Shown piece by piece: positions 32,004-59,241 of a DNA stretch of 64,000 bases. This DNA is from Roseateles aquatilis (GTDB lineage Bacteria > Pseudomonadota > Gammaproteobacteria > Burkholderiales > Burkholderiaceae_C), in assembly GCF_002205645.1 (NCBI RefSeq), contig NZ_NIOF01000002.1, positions 248,001-312,000 on the forward strand. Reading direction: 5' to 3'. The position numbers and the translations under genes are program-made. Within the stretch, counting starts at the first letter, position 1, and each line of letters opens with the position of its first letter. The notes under the pieces were generated by a model that was not told the origin of the DNA, did no database searches, and saw nothing but the letters and a program-made list of their open reading frames with translations.

Positions 32004-34133
32004 ATGTGGGACCACACTCTGAGCCTGGGCACTGCGTCGGGCATCGTCGCGGTATTGGCGCATCTGGCGCTGGCCGTGGCCGTGCTGCCGCAGTTCAGTC
32101 AGCAGCGTCGCCGCGCGCTGCGCCTGGAGGCCGCGTTGCTGCTCACCGCGCTGTGGGCCGGCCTGGACGCGGCGGTGGAGCAGGGCTGGCTGGGCGGCCG
32201 CCAATGGCCGGCGCAACTGCTGCTGCCGCTGTGCGACGCGCTGCGTTACGGCGCCTGGTTCGCCTTCATCCTGGCGCTGATCGAATCGCGCGGCGATGAC
32301 GGCCAGGCGCGCAGCGCCGGCGTCGCCCGTCCGCTGCAATGGCTGGCCTGGGCCGGCGTGGTGGCCGCGATCGCGTTGCCGATGTGGCGCTACTGGGGCG
32401 ACACCTCGATGTCCGCGATGCAGCGGCCGATGACGATGGCCTGGCTGGGCCTGAGCGTCTTCGGCCTGGTGCTGCTGGAGCAGATGCTGCGCAACATCCA
32501 CAGCGACGCGCGCTGGAACGCCAAGCCCGTGTGCCTGGGGCTGGGCGCGGTCTTCGCGTTCGATGTGTTCGTGTTCTCGCAGGCCTCGCTGTTCCAGCAG
32601 TTCGACGGCGACGCGCTGAGCGTGCGCGCCGCCGTGCACAGCCTGGCCGTGCCGCTGCTGTGGCTGGCCAGCCGCCGTCACAAGAAGTGGCTGGACAAGC
32701 TGCATGTGTCGCGCACGGCCGCTTTCCACTCGGCCACGCTGCTGATCGTGGGCGTGTACCTGCTGGGCGTGTCCGGCATCGGCTACTACGTGCGCTACAC
32801 CGGCGGCGAGTGGGGCCGCGCGCTGCAGCAGGTGCTGCTGGCGATCGGCGTGCTGGCGCTGCTGCTGATGGGCCTGTCGGGCTCGCTGCGCGCCAAGCTG
32901 CGGGTCTACATCAGCAAGCATTTCTTCAGCTACCGCTACGACTATCGGCAGGAGTGGCTGCGCTTCACCGCCATGCTGTCAGCGAGCGCCTCGCCGGCGG
33001 CGCTGGGCGAGTCCGTGATCCGCGGCCTGGCCAACCTGGTGGAGAGCCCCTCGGGCGCGCTCTGGCTGCGCCGCGGCCCGACCGCCGACGACTTCCAGCA
33101 GTCCGCGCGCTGGAACCTCAACGACGACCGCCAGGTGCTGGTGCCCGACGCCGCGCTGCTGCACCTGCTGCAGGATCGCGCCTGGATCGTGGACCTGGAC
33201 GAGTGGCGCCGCCGCCCCGGCGCCTATGAGCACGTGGCGCTGCCCGACGCGCTCGCGGGCGACGGCCGCCACTGGCTGCTGGTGCCGCTGCTCAACACCG
33301 GCGTGCTGATCGGCTGGGTGATCCTGGGCCAGCCGCGCACGCGGCTCGAATTGAACTGGGAAGTGCGCGACCTGCTGCGCACCGCCGCGCAGCAGGCCGC
33401 CAGCTACCTGGCGCAGATGCAGGCCGCCGAGGCGCTGCTGGAGGCGCGCAAGTTCGAGGCCTTCAACCGCATGTCGGCCTTCGTCGTGCATGACCTGAAG
33501 AACATCGTCACGCAGCTGTCGTTGATGATGAAGAACGCCAAGCGGCTGCGGGACAACCCGGAGTTCCAGCAGGACATGCTGGACACCGTGGAGAACTCCC
33601 TGGAGAAGATGCGCCAGCTGATGCTGCAATTGCGCGAGGGCGACAAGCCGCATCACGGCGGCGCCGGCGGCGTGCCGTTGCCGGTGATCGCGCGGCGGCT
33701 GGCGGCGGCGGCGGTCAGCAAGGGCCGCGCGCTGGAGCTGGAGCTGCTGGCGGACGTCAGCGCCCGCGGTCATGAGGAACGCATCGAGCGCGTGCTCGGC
33801 CACGTGGTGCAGAACGCGCTGGACGCGACGCCCATGGACGGTCGCGTGGCGATGCGATTGCAGCGCATCGGCAGCAACGCGCAGGTGGAAGTCGAGGATA
33901 CTGGTTGCGGCATGACGCAGGAGTTCATGGACCAGCGCCTGTTCAAGCCCTTCCAGACCACGAAGGCGGCGGGCATGGGCATCGGAGCCTACGAGAGCTA
34001 CCAGTACCTGCAGGAACTAGGAGGGAGGATCAACGTGGAAAGCGCGCCCGGAAGAGGCACCAAGGTCACCATCTTGCTGCCGCTGTTTTTTGCGCAGTCG
34101 GGCAGCGATGCCGGATTGGTGGAGGTGAGATGA
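32004..34133 (+). CDS. prsK: PEP-CTERM/exosortase system histidine kinase PrsK
   Basis: A 709-residue membrane histidine kinase. About eight to ten helices fill residues 5-295, then a GAF-like domain (about 320-475). The phosphoacceptor region is FVVHDLKNIVTQLSLMM with His496. The ATPase domain has the N-box VVQNALDATP, DTGCGM and GMGIGAYESYQY. Architecture and neighbours are those of PrsK, the kinase for PrsR. Its stop codon overlaps the ATG of the first mini-ORF in the 77-bp repeats. Confidence 0.9.
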   Translation: MWDHTLSLGTASGIVAVLAHLALAVAVLPQFSQQRRRALRLEAALLLTALWAGLDAAVEQGWLGGRQWPAQLLLPLCDALRYGAWFAFILALIESRGDDGQARSAGVARPLQWLAWAGVVAAIALPMWRYWGDTSMSAMQRPMTMAWLGLSVFGLVLLEQMLRNIHSDARWNAKPVCLGLGAVFAFDVFVFSQASLFQQFDGDALSVRAAVHSLAVPLLWLASRRHKKWLDKLHVSRTAAFHSATLLIVGVYLLGVSGIGYYVRYTGGEWGRALQQVLLAIGVLALLLMGLSGSLRAKLRVYISKHFFSYRYDYRQEWLRFTAMLSASASPAALGESVIRGLANLVESPSGALWLRRGPTADDFQQSARWNLNDDRQVLVPDAALLHLLQDRAWIVDLDEWRRRPGAYEHVALPDALAGDGRHWLLVPLLNTGVLIGWVILGQPRTRLELNWEVRDLLRTAAQQAASYLAQMQAAEALLEARKFEAFNRMSAFVVHDLKNIVTQLSLMMKNAKRLRDNPEFQQDMLDTVENSLEKMRQLMLQLREGDKPHHGGAGGVPLPVIARRLAAAAVSKGRALELELLADVSARGHEERIERVLGHVVQNALDATPMDGRVAMRLQRIGSNAQVEVEDTGCGMTQEFMDQRLFKPFQTTKAAGMGIGAYESYQYLQELGGRINVESAPGRGTKVTILLPLFFAQSGSDAGLVEVR

Positions 34134-34210
34134 GCGCTGCCGCACGGCCGTCCGAAGGCGGCGCTGCGTCCCTCTCGGAGGGACCCACGAAGTGGAGGGA
34201 GCCCACATGA
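34130..34210 (+). CDS. Leader mini-ORF 1 (26 residues), coupled to prsK
   Basis: The ATG overlaps the prsK stop (ATGA) and its own TGA overlaps the next mini-ORF ATG. The peptide starts MSAAARPSEGGAAS and ends KWREPT. The prsK tail supplies GGTGGAGG just upstream as ribosome site. It may have no function beyond passing ribosomes on. Confidence 0.4.
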   Translation: MSAAARPSEGGAASLSEGPTKWREPT

Positions 34211-34287
34211 GCGCTGCCGCACGGCCGCCCGAAGGCGGCGCTGCGTCCCTCTCGGAGGGACCCACGAAGTGGAGGGAGCCCACATGA
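34207..34287 (+). CDS. Leader mini-ORF 2 (26 residues)
   Basis: Same length and ATGA overlap at both ends. It differs from mini-ORF 1 by Ser8 to Pro (MSAAARPPEGG). It is preceded by GTGGAGGGAG at normal ribosome-site spacing. Confidence 0.4.
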   Translation: MSAAARPPEGGAASLSEGPTKWREPT

Positions 34288-34360
34288 GCGCTGCCGCACG
34301 GCCGCCCGAAGGCGGCGCTGCGTCCCTCTCGGAGGGACCCACGACGTGGAGGGTGCCCAC

Positions 34361-34364
<4 letters not shown>
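34284..34364 (+). CDS. Leader mini-ORF 3 (26 residues), coupled to prsR
   Basis: Third copy, with changes near its end (TTWRVPT instead of TKWREPT). Its stop overlaps the prsR ATG as ATGA, completing an unbroken chain of overlapping stops and starts from prsK to prsR. Confidence 0.4.
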
Positions 34365-35725
<1,361 letters not shown>

Positions 35726-56980: not shown

Positions 56981-57502
56981 ATGACCTTCATTCCCACCTT
57001 TGCCGCCCATCCCCGTCTCGACGGCTGGTCCCAGCCTTCCTGGTCCACGCGGCAACCACCCCCGAACACGCCCTGGCCGCCGCTGGATCCGGGCATCAAC
57101 CCCGCGCATCTGCTGCATCTGGAGCACGACGTCCTGGGTCTTCCCCCCAGCATTCCCACATATCTCAACGCGACGATGCTGCCTTTCACTGGCAGCTATC
57201 TGCCGCCGGTCATGCAGGCCGCCTTGCCGCCCGTGGGCACCCCCTTGCATCCGCAAGGGTTCATCGGCTTCCTGGCTGGGCTGCATCAGCAGAGCATCAC
57301 CGACGTGATGATGGTGCGTGGGGGCCAGGGGACGTTCGGATCGCCGCTGCTGCAGCAACTCGGCCGCCCGGGGCAGTCGGTGACCTGCTCGGTGCCCGGG
57401 GCGGACGGCCAGCCGGTGACGGCCACGGTCTATCGCACCGATGTGCCTTGCGAGGATGGCAGCTGGCTGATGCAGTCGATCTGTCGCATGGGGCGCGCAT
57501 GA
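56981..57502 (+). CDS. Hypothetical protein, Pro-rich
   Basis: A 173-residue protein with no recognised domain and no signal peptide. The N-terminal half is Pro/Leu-rich and probably flexible; the C-terminal part has two cysteines (SVTCSVPGADG, DVPCEDG). There is no clear ribosome site; an in-frame ATG 21 bp upstream is an alternative start. Its stop overlaps the start of the next gene (ATGATG region), so both are produced together. Confidence 0.5.
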   Translation: MTFIPTFAAHPRLDGWSQPSWSTRQPPPNTPWPPLDPGINPAHLLHLEHDVLGLPPSIPTYLNATMLPFTGSYLPPVMQAALPPVGTPLHPQGFIGFLAGLHQQSITDVMMVRGGQGTFGSPLLQQLGRPGQSVTCSVPGADGQPVTATVYRTDVPCEDGSWLMQSICRMGRA

Positions 57503-59241
57503 TGTCGTCGCAACTGCTTCGCGTGCATGAGGCCGACGCGCGCCCGGATCGTCCCGCCGCCCTCCTTGACGGCGTGTCGCGAGGCTTCGGTTCCTGGCAC
57601 CAGGGACTGGCCCGCGGCGAGGATCGCCGCATGGCGGTCCTCTGCGACGACGGCGCGCGGCGTTCCGGCGCGGCCATCTCCCTGATGCATCAGATGCAGC
57701 TGCAGCACATGAGGACGACTCTGGGGCAGGGCGCGATGATGACGCTCCAGTCCCGAGAGGCGATGCATCAACGCTTCGACCTCGAGTGCCGCGAACAACG
57801 CGGTGAAGCGTTCGGGCAAGGCCAGCAGGGGTTGCTCCATGCCGCGTTCAGGCAGATGGCGGAGCCGCCCCGGCCAATGCCGGAGCAGCCAATGCCAGCC
57901 GGTTTCAGGCCCGCGTCGAGTGCGGTGTCGGCCGATCAACAGGTGTTGGACCAGACCATTCCGCCCCAGGACGCTGCGCAGTTGCCGGCGCTGTTGCAAC
58001 GCCCGCCTCGGGCCATGCCGGCGCCTTCGCCCGGTCCCGCCCCGGTCAGGGACGGCGACACGCAGACAGAGTCCATCGACGAGCCGCCGCCTCGTCCGAC
58101 CACTCCACCGCCGGGACGCCCCGCCTCTCGGCGCGCGACGACAGTCAATGACGGCGGAACGCAGACCGAATCGACGCCAACCACGATGCCGGCGGTAGCC
58201 TCGTCGACACCCGCACCCGCACCCGCACCCGCACCCGCACCCGCACCCGCACCCGCACCCGCACCCGCATCGACATCGAAACCTGCGCCCGCACCCCAAC
58301 CTGCACCAGCGTCGGCGCCCACCGCAACCGATCCGGTAGCGCCTCCCCGCCCTCGAAGGGATGAGCGGCGGGCCGCCATCGGTGCGGGGTCCGCGCCCCT
58401 CCCCAGGTCATCGATTTCAGCGCCAGGGCTTCAGCGCAGTCTGTCCATGCCGAGCCCGCCCACCCATGATCCGGAGGCAGAGGAGGCTCGGACGATTGCC
58501 GCGAAGCTGTCTCACGCGGCCAAGCCGCCGACACTGGATCCCGGCGCCGCGGATGCCCGGCGTGAGGCCGCGGCCCGGGCTCAGGCCCAACAAGCGGCGC
58601 TGACCCGCTCGCTGGAGAAGGCGCGAGGCGATGTCGCGAAGTCGGCGACGGTTGCGCGCGCTTCCAGCGAGTCGGCGCTGAACATCGGTGCCTCGTCCAG
58701 TGCGACGAGCACCTCGATCCGGCGCGCCGCGACCACCGGCGATCTCACTGCGTCCGGAGATCGCTCGGCAAGCGCTCCAGGTCCGGTCGCACGCGAAATG
58801 AGGTCGCTCTTCCAGGCGCTCTATGTGAAGAAGGATCCCGTCGGTCTCGAGAAGCGGATCGAAGTCCACATGCAGCCGCTGGTCGACCGCATCCGTCAGC
58901 ACCACCGCAACCTGCCGCCAGAGGAGCGGGCGAAAACCACCGAGGCCGAGTACGTGCTGCGCGCCCTGGTCCGGTCCGCCGGTAGTGCGGCCGCCTCGCT
59001 GCCGCCGCAGGAGCAGGCGCGGCTGGCGACGCTGGTGACCCAATCGGGCGGCAGCTTCGACCTCGCACGGCGCGCGCACGGAACGATGTTGGAGGAGCTG
59101 TCGCAACTGGCTGGCAGCGATCGTCTGGATGCGTCCGCCGTGTCGCGCCGGTTGAAGGACGTGACCCGTCGCCAGGAGACCTTGAACTACGTGTTGGTGG
59201 CCATGGAACGCGCCGCGCGATCGAGCGAAAGCGACGCCTGA
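57499..59241 (+). CDS. Hypothetical low-complexity protein with (Pro-Ala)n repeat
   Basis: A 580-residue protein I do not recognise. Residues 1-135 look helical and Gln/Met/His-rich. About 170-350 is disordered and Pro/Ala/Ser/Thr-rich, with two DG(D/G)TQTES motifs and a run of ten Pro-Ala pairs coded by hexanucleotide repeats. The last ~160 residues form a helical domain (EMRSLFQALYVKKDPVGLEK onward). There is no signal peptide or membrane helix. The layout of a disordered linker between helical domains suits a secreted effector or large scaffold, but no secretion signal is proved. Confidence 0.6.
   Translation: MMSSQLLRVHEADARPDRPAALLDGVSRGFGSWHQGLARGEDRRMAVLCDDGARRSGAAISLMHQMQLQHMRTTLGQGAMMTLQSREAMHQRFDLECREQRGEAFGQGQQGLLHAAFRQMAEPPRPMPEQPMPAGFRPASSAVSADQQVLDQTIPPQDAAQLPALLQRPPRAMPAPSPGPAPVRDGDTQTESIDEPPPRPTTPPPGRPASRRATTVNDGGTQTESTPTTMPAVASSTPAPAPAPAPAPAPAPAPAPASTSKPAPAPQPAPASAPTATDPVAPPRPRRDERRAAIGAGSAPLPRSSISAPGLQRSLSMPSPPTHDPEAEEARTIAAKLSHAAKPPTLDPGAADARREAAARAQAQQAALTRSLEKARGDVAKSATVARASSESALNIGASSSATSTSIRRAATTGDLTASGDRSASAPGPVAREMRSLFQALYVKKDPVGLEKRIEVHMQPLVDRIRQHHRNLPPEERAKTTEAEYVLRALVRSAGSAAASLPPQEQARLATLVTQSGGSFDLARRAHGTMLEELSQLAGSDRLDASAVSRRLKDVTRRQETLNYVLVAMERAARSSESDA
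58209..58268 (+). repeat. Hexanucleotide repeat (ACCCGC)10
   Basis: Ten perfect tandem copies of ACCCGC encode alternating Pro-Ala inside the unknown 580-residue protein. A change in copy number would keep frame and alter linker length by two residues per unit. Pure repeats of this kind mutate quickly by slippage. Confidence 0.95.

Follow-up and report, generated by a model that had tools for sequence, protein, structure and literature searches.

A tandemly repeated 77-bp hairpin element with a coupled open frame between prsK and prsR of Roseateles aquatilis

The three 77-bp units that separate prsK from prsR in R. aquatilis are likely to be tandem copies of a dispersed hairpin element that lies at NTGA stop/start sites and is transparent to translation. 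Such an element would occupy sites at which the stop codon of one gene overlaps the start codon of the next (NTGA) and would bring with it a frame that is open from NTGA to NTGA; at prsK-prsR, one copy would have been triplicated in tandem. A ribosome finishing prsK could then reinitiate on unit 1, pass in the same manner through units 2 and 3, and arrive at prsR, with a purine-rich run supplied by the element before each start possibly aiding reinitiation. Because the frame is open from NTGA to NTGA, neither insertion nor a change in copy number need uncouple the operon, and the element may persist mainly because it does little harm. It is probably mobile, and we infer its movement to the site as such.

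RESULTS

Anatomy of the prsK-prsR locus

The codirectional genes prsK and prsR, whose products are a sensor kinase and a response regulator of the PEP-CTERM system (Table 1), are separated by a tandem repeat with a 77-bp period (98% matches, 3.1 copies). Each 81-nt stretch encodes 26 amino acids and a TGA, starting in an ATGA shared with the previous stop and ending in the next ATGA, and the terminal ATGA of the third mini-ORF supplies the start of prsR at 34361. Repeat detection and translation confirm the preliminary description of this locus as a tandem chain of 77-bp mini-ORFs, each of 26 residues and ATGA coupled, that leads from prsK to prsR. That description called the repeats exact, which is true of the period, exactly 77 bp, but not of the units, since unit 1 differs from unit 2 by one base and unit 3 differs from unit 2 by two. 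Within the 64-kb window (the whole stretch of DNA that was analyzed), two internal motifs searched with up to three mismatches match at the three units only, and they match in none of 100 shuffles.

Table 1. Features of the prsK-prsR junction, in window positions
Feature	Position	Strand	Remarks
prsK, XrtA/PEP-CTERM histidine kinase	32004-34133	+	TIGR02916, 769 bits; its TGA lies within the ATGA at 34130-34133
Unit 1	34130-34206	+	Mini-ORF 34130-34210, MSAAARPSEGGAASLSEGPTKWREPT and stop
Unit 2	34207-34283	+	Mini-ORF 34207-34287, MSAAARPPEGGAASLSEGPTKWREPT and stop
Unit 3	34284-34360	+	Mini-ORF 34284-34364
Conserved loop motif GCACGGCCGCCCGAAGG	34219-34235 (unit 2)	+	Hallmark for finding the repeat family
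Loop motif GCACGGCCGCCCGAAGG, other copies	34296-34312; 34142-34158 with one change	+	
GGAGGG, Shine-Dalgarno-like run ahead of the next ATG	34194-34199; also 34271-34276 and 34348-34353	+	Read from the sequence
prsR, PEP-CTERM-box response regulator	34361-35725	+	TIGR02915, 697 bits; ATG overlaps the stop of unit 3

Elsewhere in the window, positions 58208-58269 hold a perfect run of about 10 copies of a (CACCCG)n-type hexamer. It lies in a 597-aa ORF (57448-59241, + strand), where it is read as repeated Ala-Pro, and a change in its copy number would preserve the reading frame of that ORF.

Dispersal of the repeat family

With one unit as the BLAST query (E <= 0.001), matches occur in at least 113 of 299 genomes of the family and in at least 68 of 141 genera, which are lower bounds, as three first-look candidates were scored per genome. 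A loop motif, GCACGGCCGN{2,3}CGAAGG, matched 73 of 150 family genomes. By hand count it has about 200 matches, compared with 24 for the pattern reversed as a control; many of these matches differ from the family in their loops and are probably due to chance. In an order-wide sample of 300 genomes, 11 had a match to a narrower motif (2 of 9 within the family and 9 of 291 outside it). Among the motif-matched genera are Ramlibacter, Hydrogenophaga, Ottowia, Rubrivivax, Aquincola, Thiomonas, Verticiella, Pigmentiphaga, and Aromatoleum. A search of another family with a Verticiella copy as the query detected relatives, several of which are tandem, in 12 of 151 genomes.

The R. aquatilis genome itself has only the prsK-prsR array. 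A genome search for further dispersed 77-bp copies, as had been proposed, returned none, the remaining hits being eight weaker matches of 17 to 29 bp (E values of 0.01 to 0.84), and no plasmid matched the unit. Dispersal over many loci, as is known for the mycobacterial repeats called MIRU, is seen in other genomes, with a single locus in this one. Many unrelated copies at noncoding sites had been named in advance as evidence against a coupling role; copies are indeed numerous in other genomes, but they lie mostly at stop/start overlaps.

In another family of the order, tandem arrays of period 81 (L297, L309, L315, and L317) run into one long open frame with the sequence that follows, such that a change in copy number could alter the length of a protein. 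A further array there, of period 82 to 83 (L306), has NTGA hops instead.

Occupied and empty sites

PrsR was found in 67 of 250 genomes in a family-wide search, and the junction with prsK varies in its content. Nine of the 16 genus genomes compared have a bare ATGA there, and one more (G012) has an ATGA overlap that is followed by a longer prsR N terminus. Three units are present in G000, two in G002, and one in G013, whereas G004 and G010 have a spacer without overlap. Copy number, which the preliminary description proposed to compare across strains, varies among the genomes of the genus from three units to none. One extra base in G002 joins its two units in a single frame of 52 aa, the end of which remains in the ATGA of prsR. 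A tree of 16 rows places G002 and G013 as sisters within a supported clade of six genomes and leaves G000 and the bare G003 outside it, which implies two or more gains or else a single gain followed by several exact losses. Outside the genus, the best 27 of 64 genomes with PrsR were inspected: prsR directly follows an ATGA at the prsK stop in 22, a genome of another genus (G045) has an insert of similar type, and 4 differ. The prsK-prsR junction of one further genome of the genus, G008, contains an unrelated-looking 83-bp insert (L027:1415-1501) with a 28-aa frame that runs from ATGA to GTGA.

A second site lies between genes that we take, from their sequences, to be a cation:proton antiporter gene and ybdK. 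In G011 a single 77-bp unit with 86% identity is situated between them, and in the other 15 of the 16 genus genomes the junction is, by inspection, a bare ATGA; the difference between the occupied and empty sites is exactly the unit. In L096, from another genus, the element precedes a gene whose N terminus is similar to that of the gene at the ybdK site. In two genus genomes (L219 and L226), the ybdK match contains a single in-frame stop.

Ends of the arrays and their linkage to flanking genes

Arrays were collected with motifs that cover the loop, alone or together with parts of the stem arms, and that exclude the ends of the element. Eighty stretches were fetched from the loop-motif matches listed, with unlike loops and one contig-end match dropped; 40 further stretches came from 25 genomes, chosen mostly among those with BLAST hits and with some listed places omitted; and 40 loci were added from the motif search that yielded the genera named above. 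Removal of identical contexts left 153 arrays. Gene calling outside the 64-kb window relied on a crude GC3 criterion, and a gene pair was considered readable when the upstream stop lay no more than 60 nt ahead of the core or 10 nt past it.

Readable pairs in the direction of the element flank 94 of the 153 arrays, and the left end is NTGA in 86 of these 94 (8 being otherwise), or in 86 of 102 when eight arrays with an upstream gene 60 to 400 nt away are included. The crude baseline for NTGA is 14 of 123 codirectional gene pairs (3 of 25 within the window plus 11 of 98 at the named loci). From the left NTGA, 63 of the 86 arrays reach the downstream frame by NTGA hops and 20 by in-frame fusion; only 3 fail, and one of these (L157) ends in TGATG, itself an overlap. 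The linked mini-ORFs range from 66 to 177 nt, with two additional hops of 12 nt. Shine-Dalgarno-like runs precede the downstream start in 57 of the 63 coupled copies and the mini-ORF in 28. There was no sign of target duplication, in that the identity of left and right flanks beyond NTGA does not exceed that of shuffles.

Another 39 arrays have no readable pair. Seven are near a stop but have no called downstream gene (four with NTGA and three without), 8 are those with the upstream gene 60 to 400 nt away, 6 are situated within a single open coding frame, and 18 are in other settings. Some of those inside an open coding frame (e.g., L121 and L132) are probably not elements at all.

The remaining 20 of the 153 arrays fit the opposite strand better. 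MIRU, as Supply et al. reportedly described them in 1997, keep to one orientation relative to the flanking genes; the arrays collected here do not, though they are mostly in the sense orientation. By a loose rule, 12 of the 20 are linked, 9 with a frame of 78 to 117 nt and 3 that are short or doubtful; L118 (48 nt), whose arms fail to pair, is not among the 9. The others comprise one fusion, two unlinked arrays, two that are open in the wrong frame, and three without a start. In eight of the opposite-strand copies (L101, L119, L137, L152, L156, L167, L168, and L266), the frame links flanking genes on the other strand, and these copies often have longer CCCCC/GGGGG hairpins.

Conservation of frame and of peptide

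Among the first 117 arrays, 65 are single-copy, forward, and flanked on the left by NTGA. The distance from start to start in these arrays leaves a remainder of 2 when divided by 3 in 50 cases, of 0 (fusion) in 13, and of 1 in only 2. Tests of these remainders against one-third give P values of 8e-13 and 2e-9, which overstate independence because copies of one subfamily share their length. When distinct distances are counted instead, there are 15, 7, and 2 for remainders of 2, 0, and 1 (P ~ 0.003 to 0.005); a doubtful choice of start underlies 4 of the 15 and 5 of the 7. The two arrays of remainder 1 (L110 and L142) make an extra three-codon hop and are coupled too; L178 is among the 50 of remainder 2, yet it was scored as broken in the linkage census. 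All of these frame counts are subject to the ease with which GC-rich DNA stays open. The other two reading frames were rejected as a control: one starts on the upstream stop, and the other is usually the frame of the downstream gene itself.

The core is read as an ARP-type peptide in 52 of the 63 coupled copies and as an HGRPK-type peptide in 11 (3 of them assigned by eye), and many ARP-type copies have an insertion in the loop that puts their second half in a different frame. Some similarity of the peptide remains, as the 52 copies share the ARP start. Because copies differ in length and use more than one frame of the core, the linkage is conserved more strictly than the peptide, and the coupling frame appears to be constrained across the repeat family. 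The suggestion that the duplication was selected or tolerated for coupling is well supported by a register that is kept across copies of many lengths.

Folding of the units

Each unit is predicted to form three short hairpins, not the two of the preliminary description. The z-scores are modest, at -1.6, -2.9, and -1.4 for units 1, 2, and 3, and shuffles folded at least as well in 12, 0, and 20 of 200 cases, respectively. An alternative outer stem appears in the centroid structure of unit 1, and this same stem covaries across the repeat family. The base change in unit 1, previously said to leave a G-U pair, does so in the inner first hairpin, but in the covarying outer stem the changed base sits in the loop. 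The pairing of stem 1 is maintained by covariation: across 175 units with 83 arm combinations, its arms pair at 6.4 of 7 positions, compared with 4.57 for shuffled partners (the maximum over 200 shuffles being 4.74, from which no strict probability follows, as the sequences are related). The copy in G013 folds no better than shuffles (z of +1.3) and is still 77 bp and coupled. No described RNA family in Rfam matched window positions 33900-34600 up to an E value of 1.

DISCUSSION

Several other explanations bear on these repeats. The number of units could be a regulatory tuner that sets the PrsR:PrsK ratio through the loss of ribosomes at each step of termination and reinitiation, with slippage shifting the ratio. 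We regard this as rather unlikely: although copy number differs between close genomes (three units, two, and one in the sister of the latter), a genome of another genus also has an insert at this junction, and each unit has its own Shine-Dalgarno-like run, more than half of the genus genomes (9 of 16) have the bare junction, and the repeat family occurs at many unrelated gene pairs. It is improbable that the repeats act at the level of RNA, with hairpins that influence transcription termination or the decay of mRNA between the genes, in the way suggested for REP-type repeats, and an open frame that is a by-product. Such an action would account for the covariation of stem 1 and for the copies in other settings or in the opposite orientation, but it would leave the frame free, and remainder 1 is almost absent, while the G013 copy retains the frame without the fold.

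That the 26-aa peptide is itself functional is very hard to credit, for all its near identity across the three units and the ARP-type start of 52 of the 63 coupled copies elsewhere, given that 11 of the 63 read the core in another frame and that many ARP-type copies change frame in their second half through loop insertions. There is equally little to recommend a neutral dispersed repeat that acquired its placement and register by chance, a reading that is already disfavored. The single locus in its own genome and the 39 of 153 arrays outside readable gene pairs would suit such a repeat, but a left NTGA in 86 of 94 arrays, a broken linkage in only 3 of 86, and an empty site that differs by exactly the unit would not. 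The preliminary description had offered, as its simpler reading, a dispersed repeat inserted and duplicated without function; dispersal holds, as the unit is found in many genomes at unrelated gene pairs, but its placement is not indifferent and the coupling register is preserved across many lengths. We therefore favor the dispersed element that translation can traverse.

The closest parallels to such an element come from mycobacteria. A 2025 review describes MIRU, in its passage on these repeats, as apparently mobile short sequences that insert at start codons, with an internal ORF coupled at -4 nt and likely little effect of insertion on the gene (PMC12548453). M. tuberculosis H37Rv has three identical 77-bp MIRUs between senX3 and regX3, units that the same account restricts to M. 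leprae and the tuberculosis complex (PMC4213456), and ETR-D/MIRU04 is listed with one to seven 77-bp copies across that complex (PMC2453075). The element considered here resembles MIRU in its coupling frame and in its tandem arrays of ~77-bp units in variable number and, by description, matches the senX3-regX3 repeats in length, in number, and in the kind of operon (sensor kinase and response regulator). It differs from MIRU in that its copies are palindromic, GC-rich, betaproteobacterial, and present in both orientations.

Within betaproteobacteria, the section of Hot et al. (2011) on the BRE repeat reports full-length copies of 75 to 91 bp in Bordetella, with a GC content of ~69%, in tandem and in variable number; usually intergenic, with some copies overlapping the ends of ORFs by a few bases; and confined to chromosomes, in Alcaligenaceae, Comamonadaceae, and Azoarcus EbN1 (PMC3110155). 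That section proposes no function and mentions no coupling frame (PMC3110155). Judged by description, from size, GC content, tandem habit, variable copy number, and host range, BRE is probably the same betaproteobacterial family. Both are GC-rich repeats of ~75 to 91 bp that occur in tandem on betaproteobacterial chromosomes, and the loop motif is present in genera that we take to belong to the same groups as the BRE hosts. An indirect check, and a weak one, for an element beside lexA found none in 6 of 6 genomes of one genus, and the lexA motif did not occur in the fetched loci. At least among the titles and abstract openings listed in the literature searched, no betaproteobacterial element of this type appeared besides BRE and MIRU. 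Text matches to the letters of the motif came only from two unrelated human papers.

REP and REPIN sequences are linked to the RAYT transposase. They too are short dispersed palindromes between genes, but a coupling frame is absent from the passage describing them (PMC12306157), whereas here the frame is the constrained feature. Rickettsia palindromic elements, as outlined in PMC2229807, are likewise palindromic, translated, and tolerated by their host genes; those inside genes, however, are joined to them in frame, unlike the present element, which lies between genes and is mostly coupled by overlaps.

A more far-reaching version of our explanation is possible but tentative, and on balance we would not wager on it. 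The element would constitute a betaproteobacterial mobile family of its own, unrelated to MIRU, that targets stop/start overlaps and has been selected to be passable for reinitiating ribosomes in either orientation and in any frame of the site; slippage would change the number of reinitiation steps, and the match to senX3-regX3 would be convergence.

An insertion between translationally coupled genes would normally break their coupling. An element with its own coupled frame can spread in operons cheaply and can add or remove steps of reinitiation. The family offers dozens of natural insertions, and for two of those studied here close relatives retain the empty site, which makes the cost of a reinitiation step and the constraint on frame measurable. 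If BRE and this family are the same, a betaproteobacterial repeat that was described without a function would acquire a role, and the findings suggest that the strategy of MIRU is not confined to mycobacteria.
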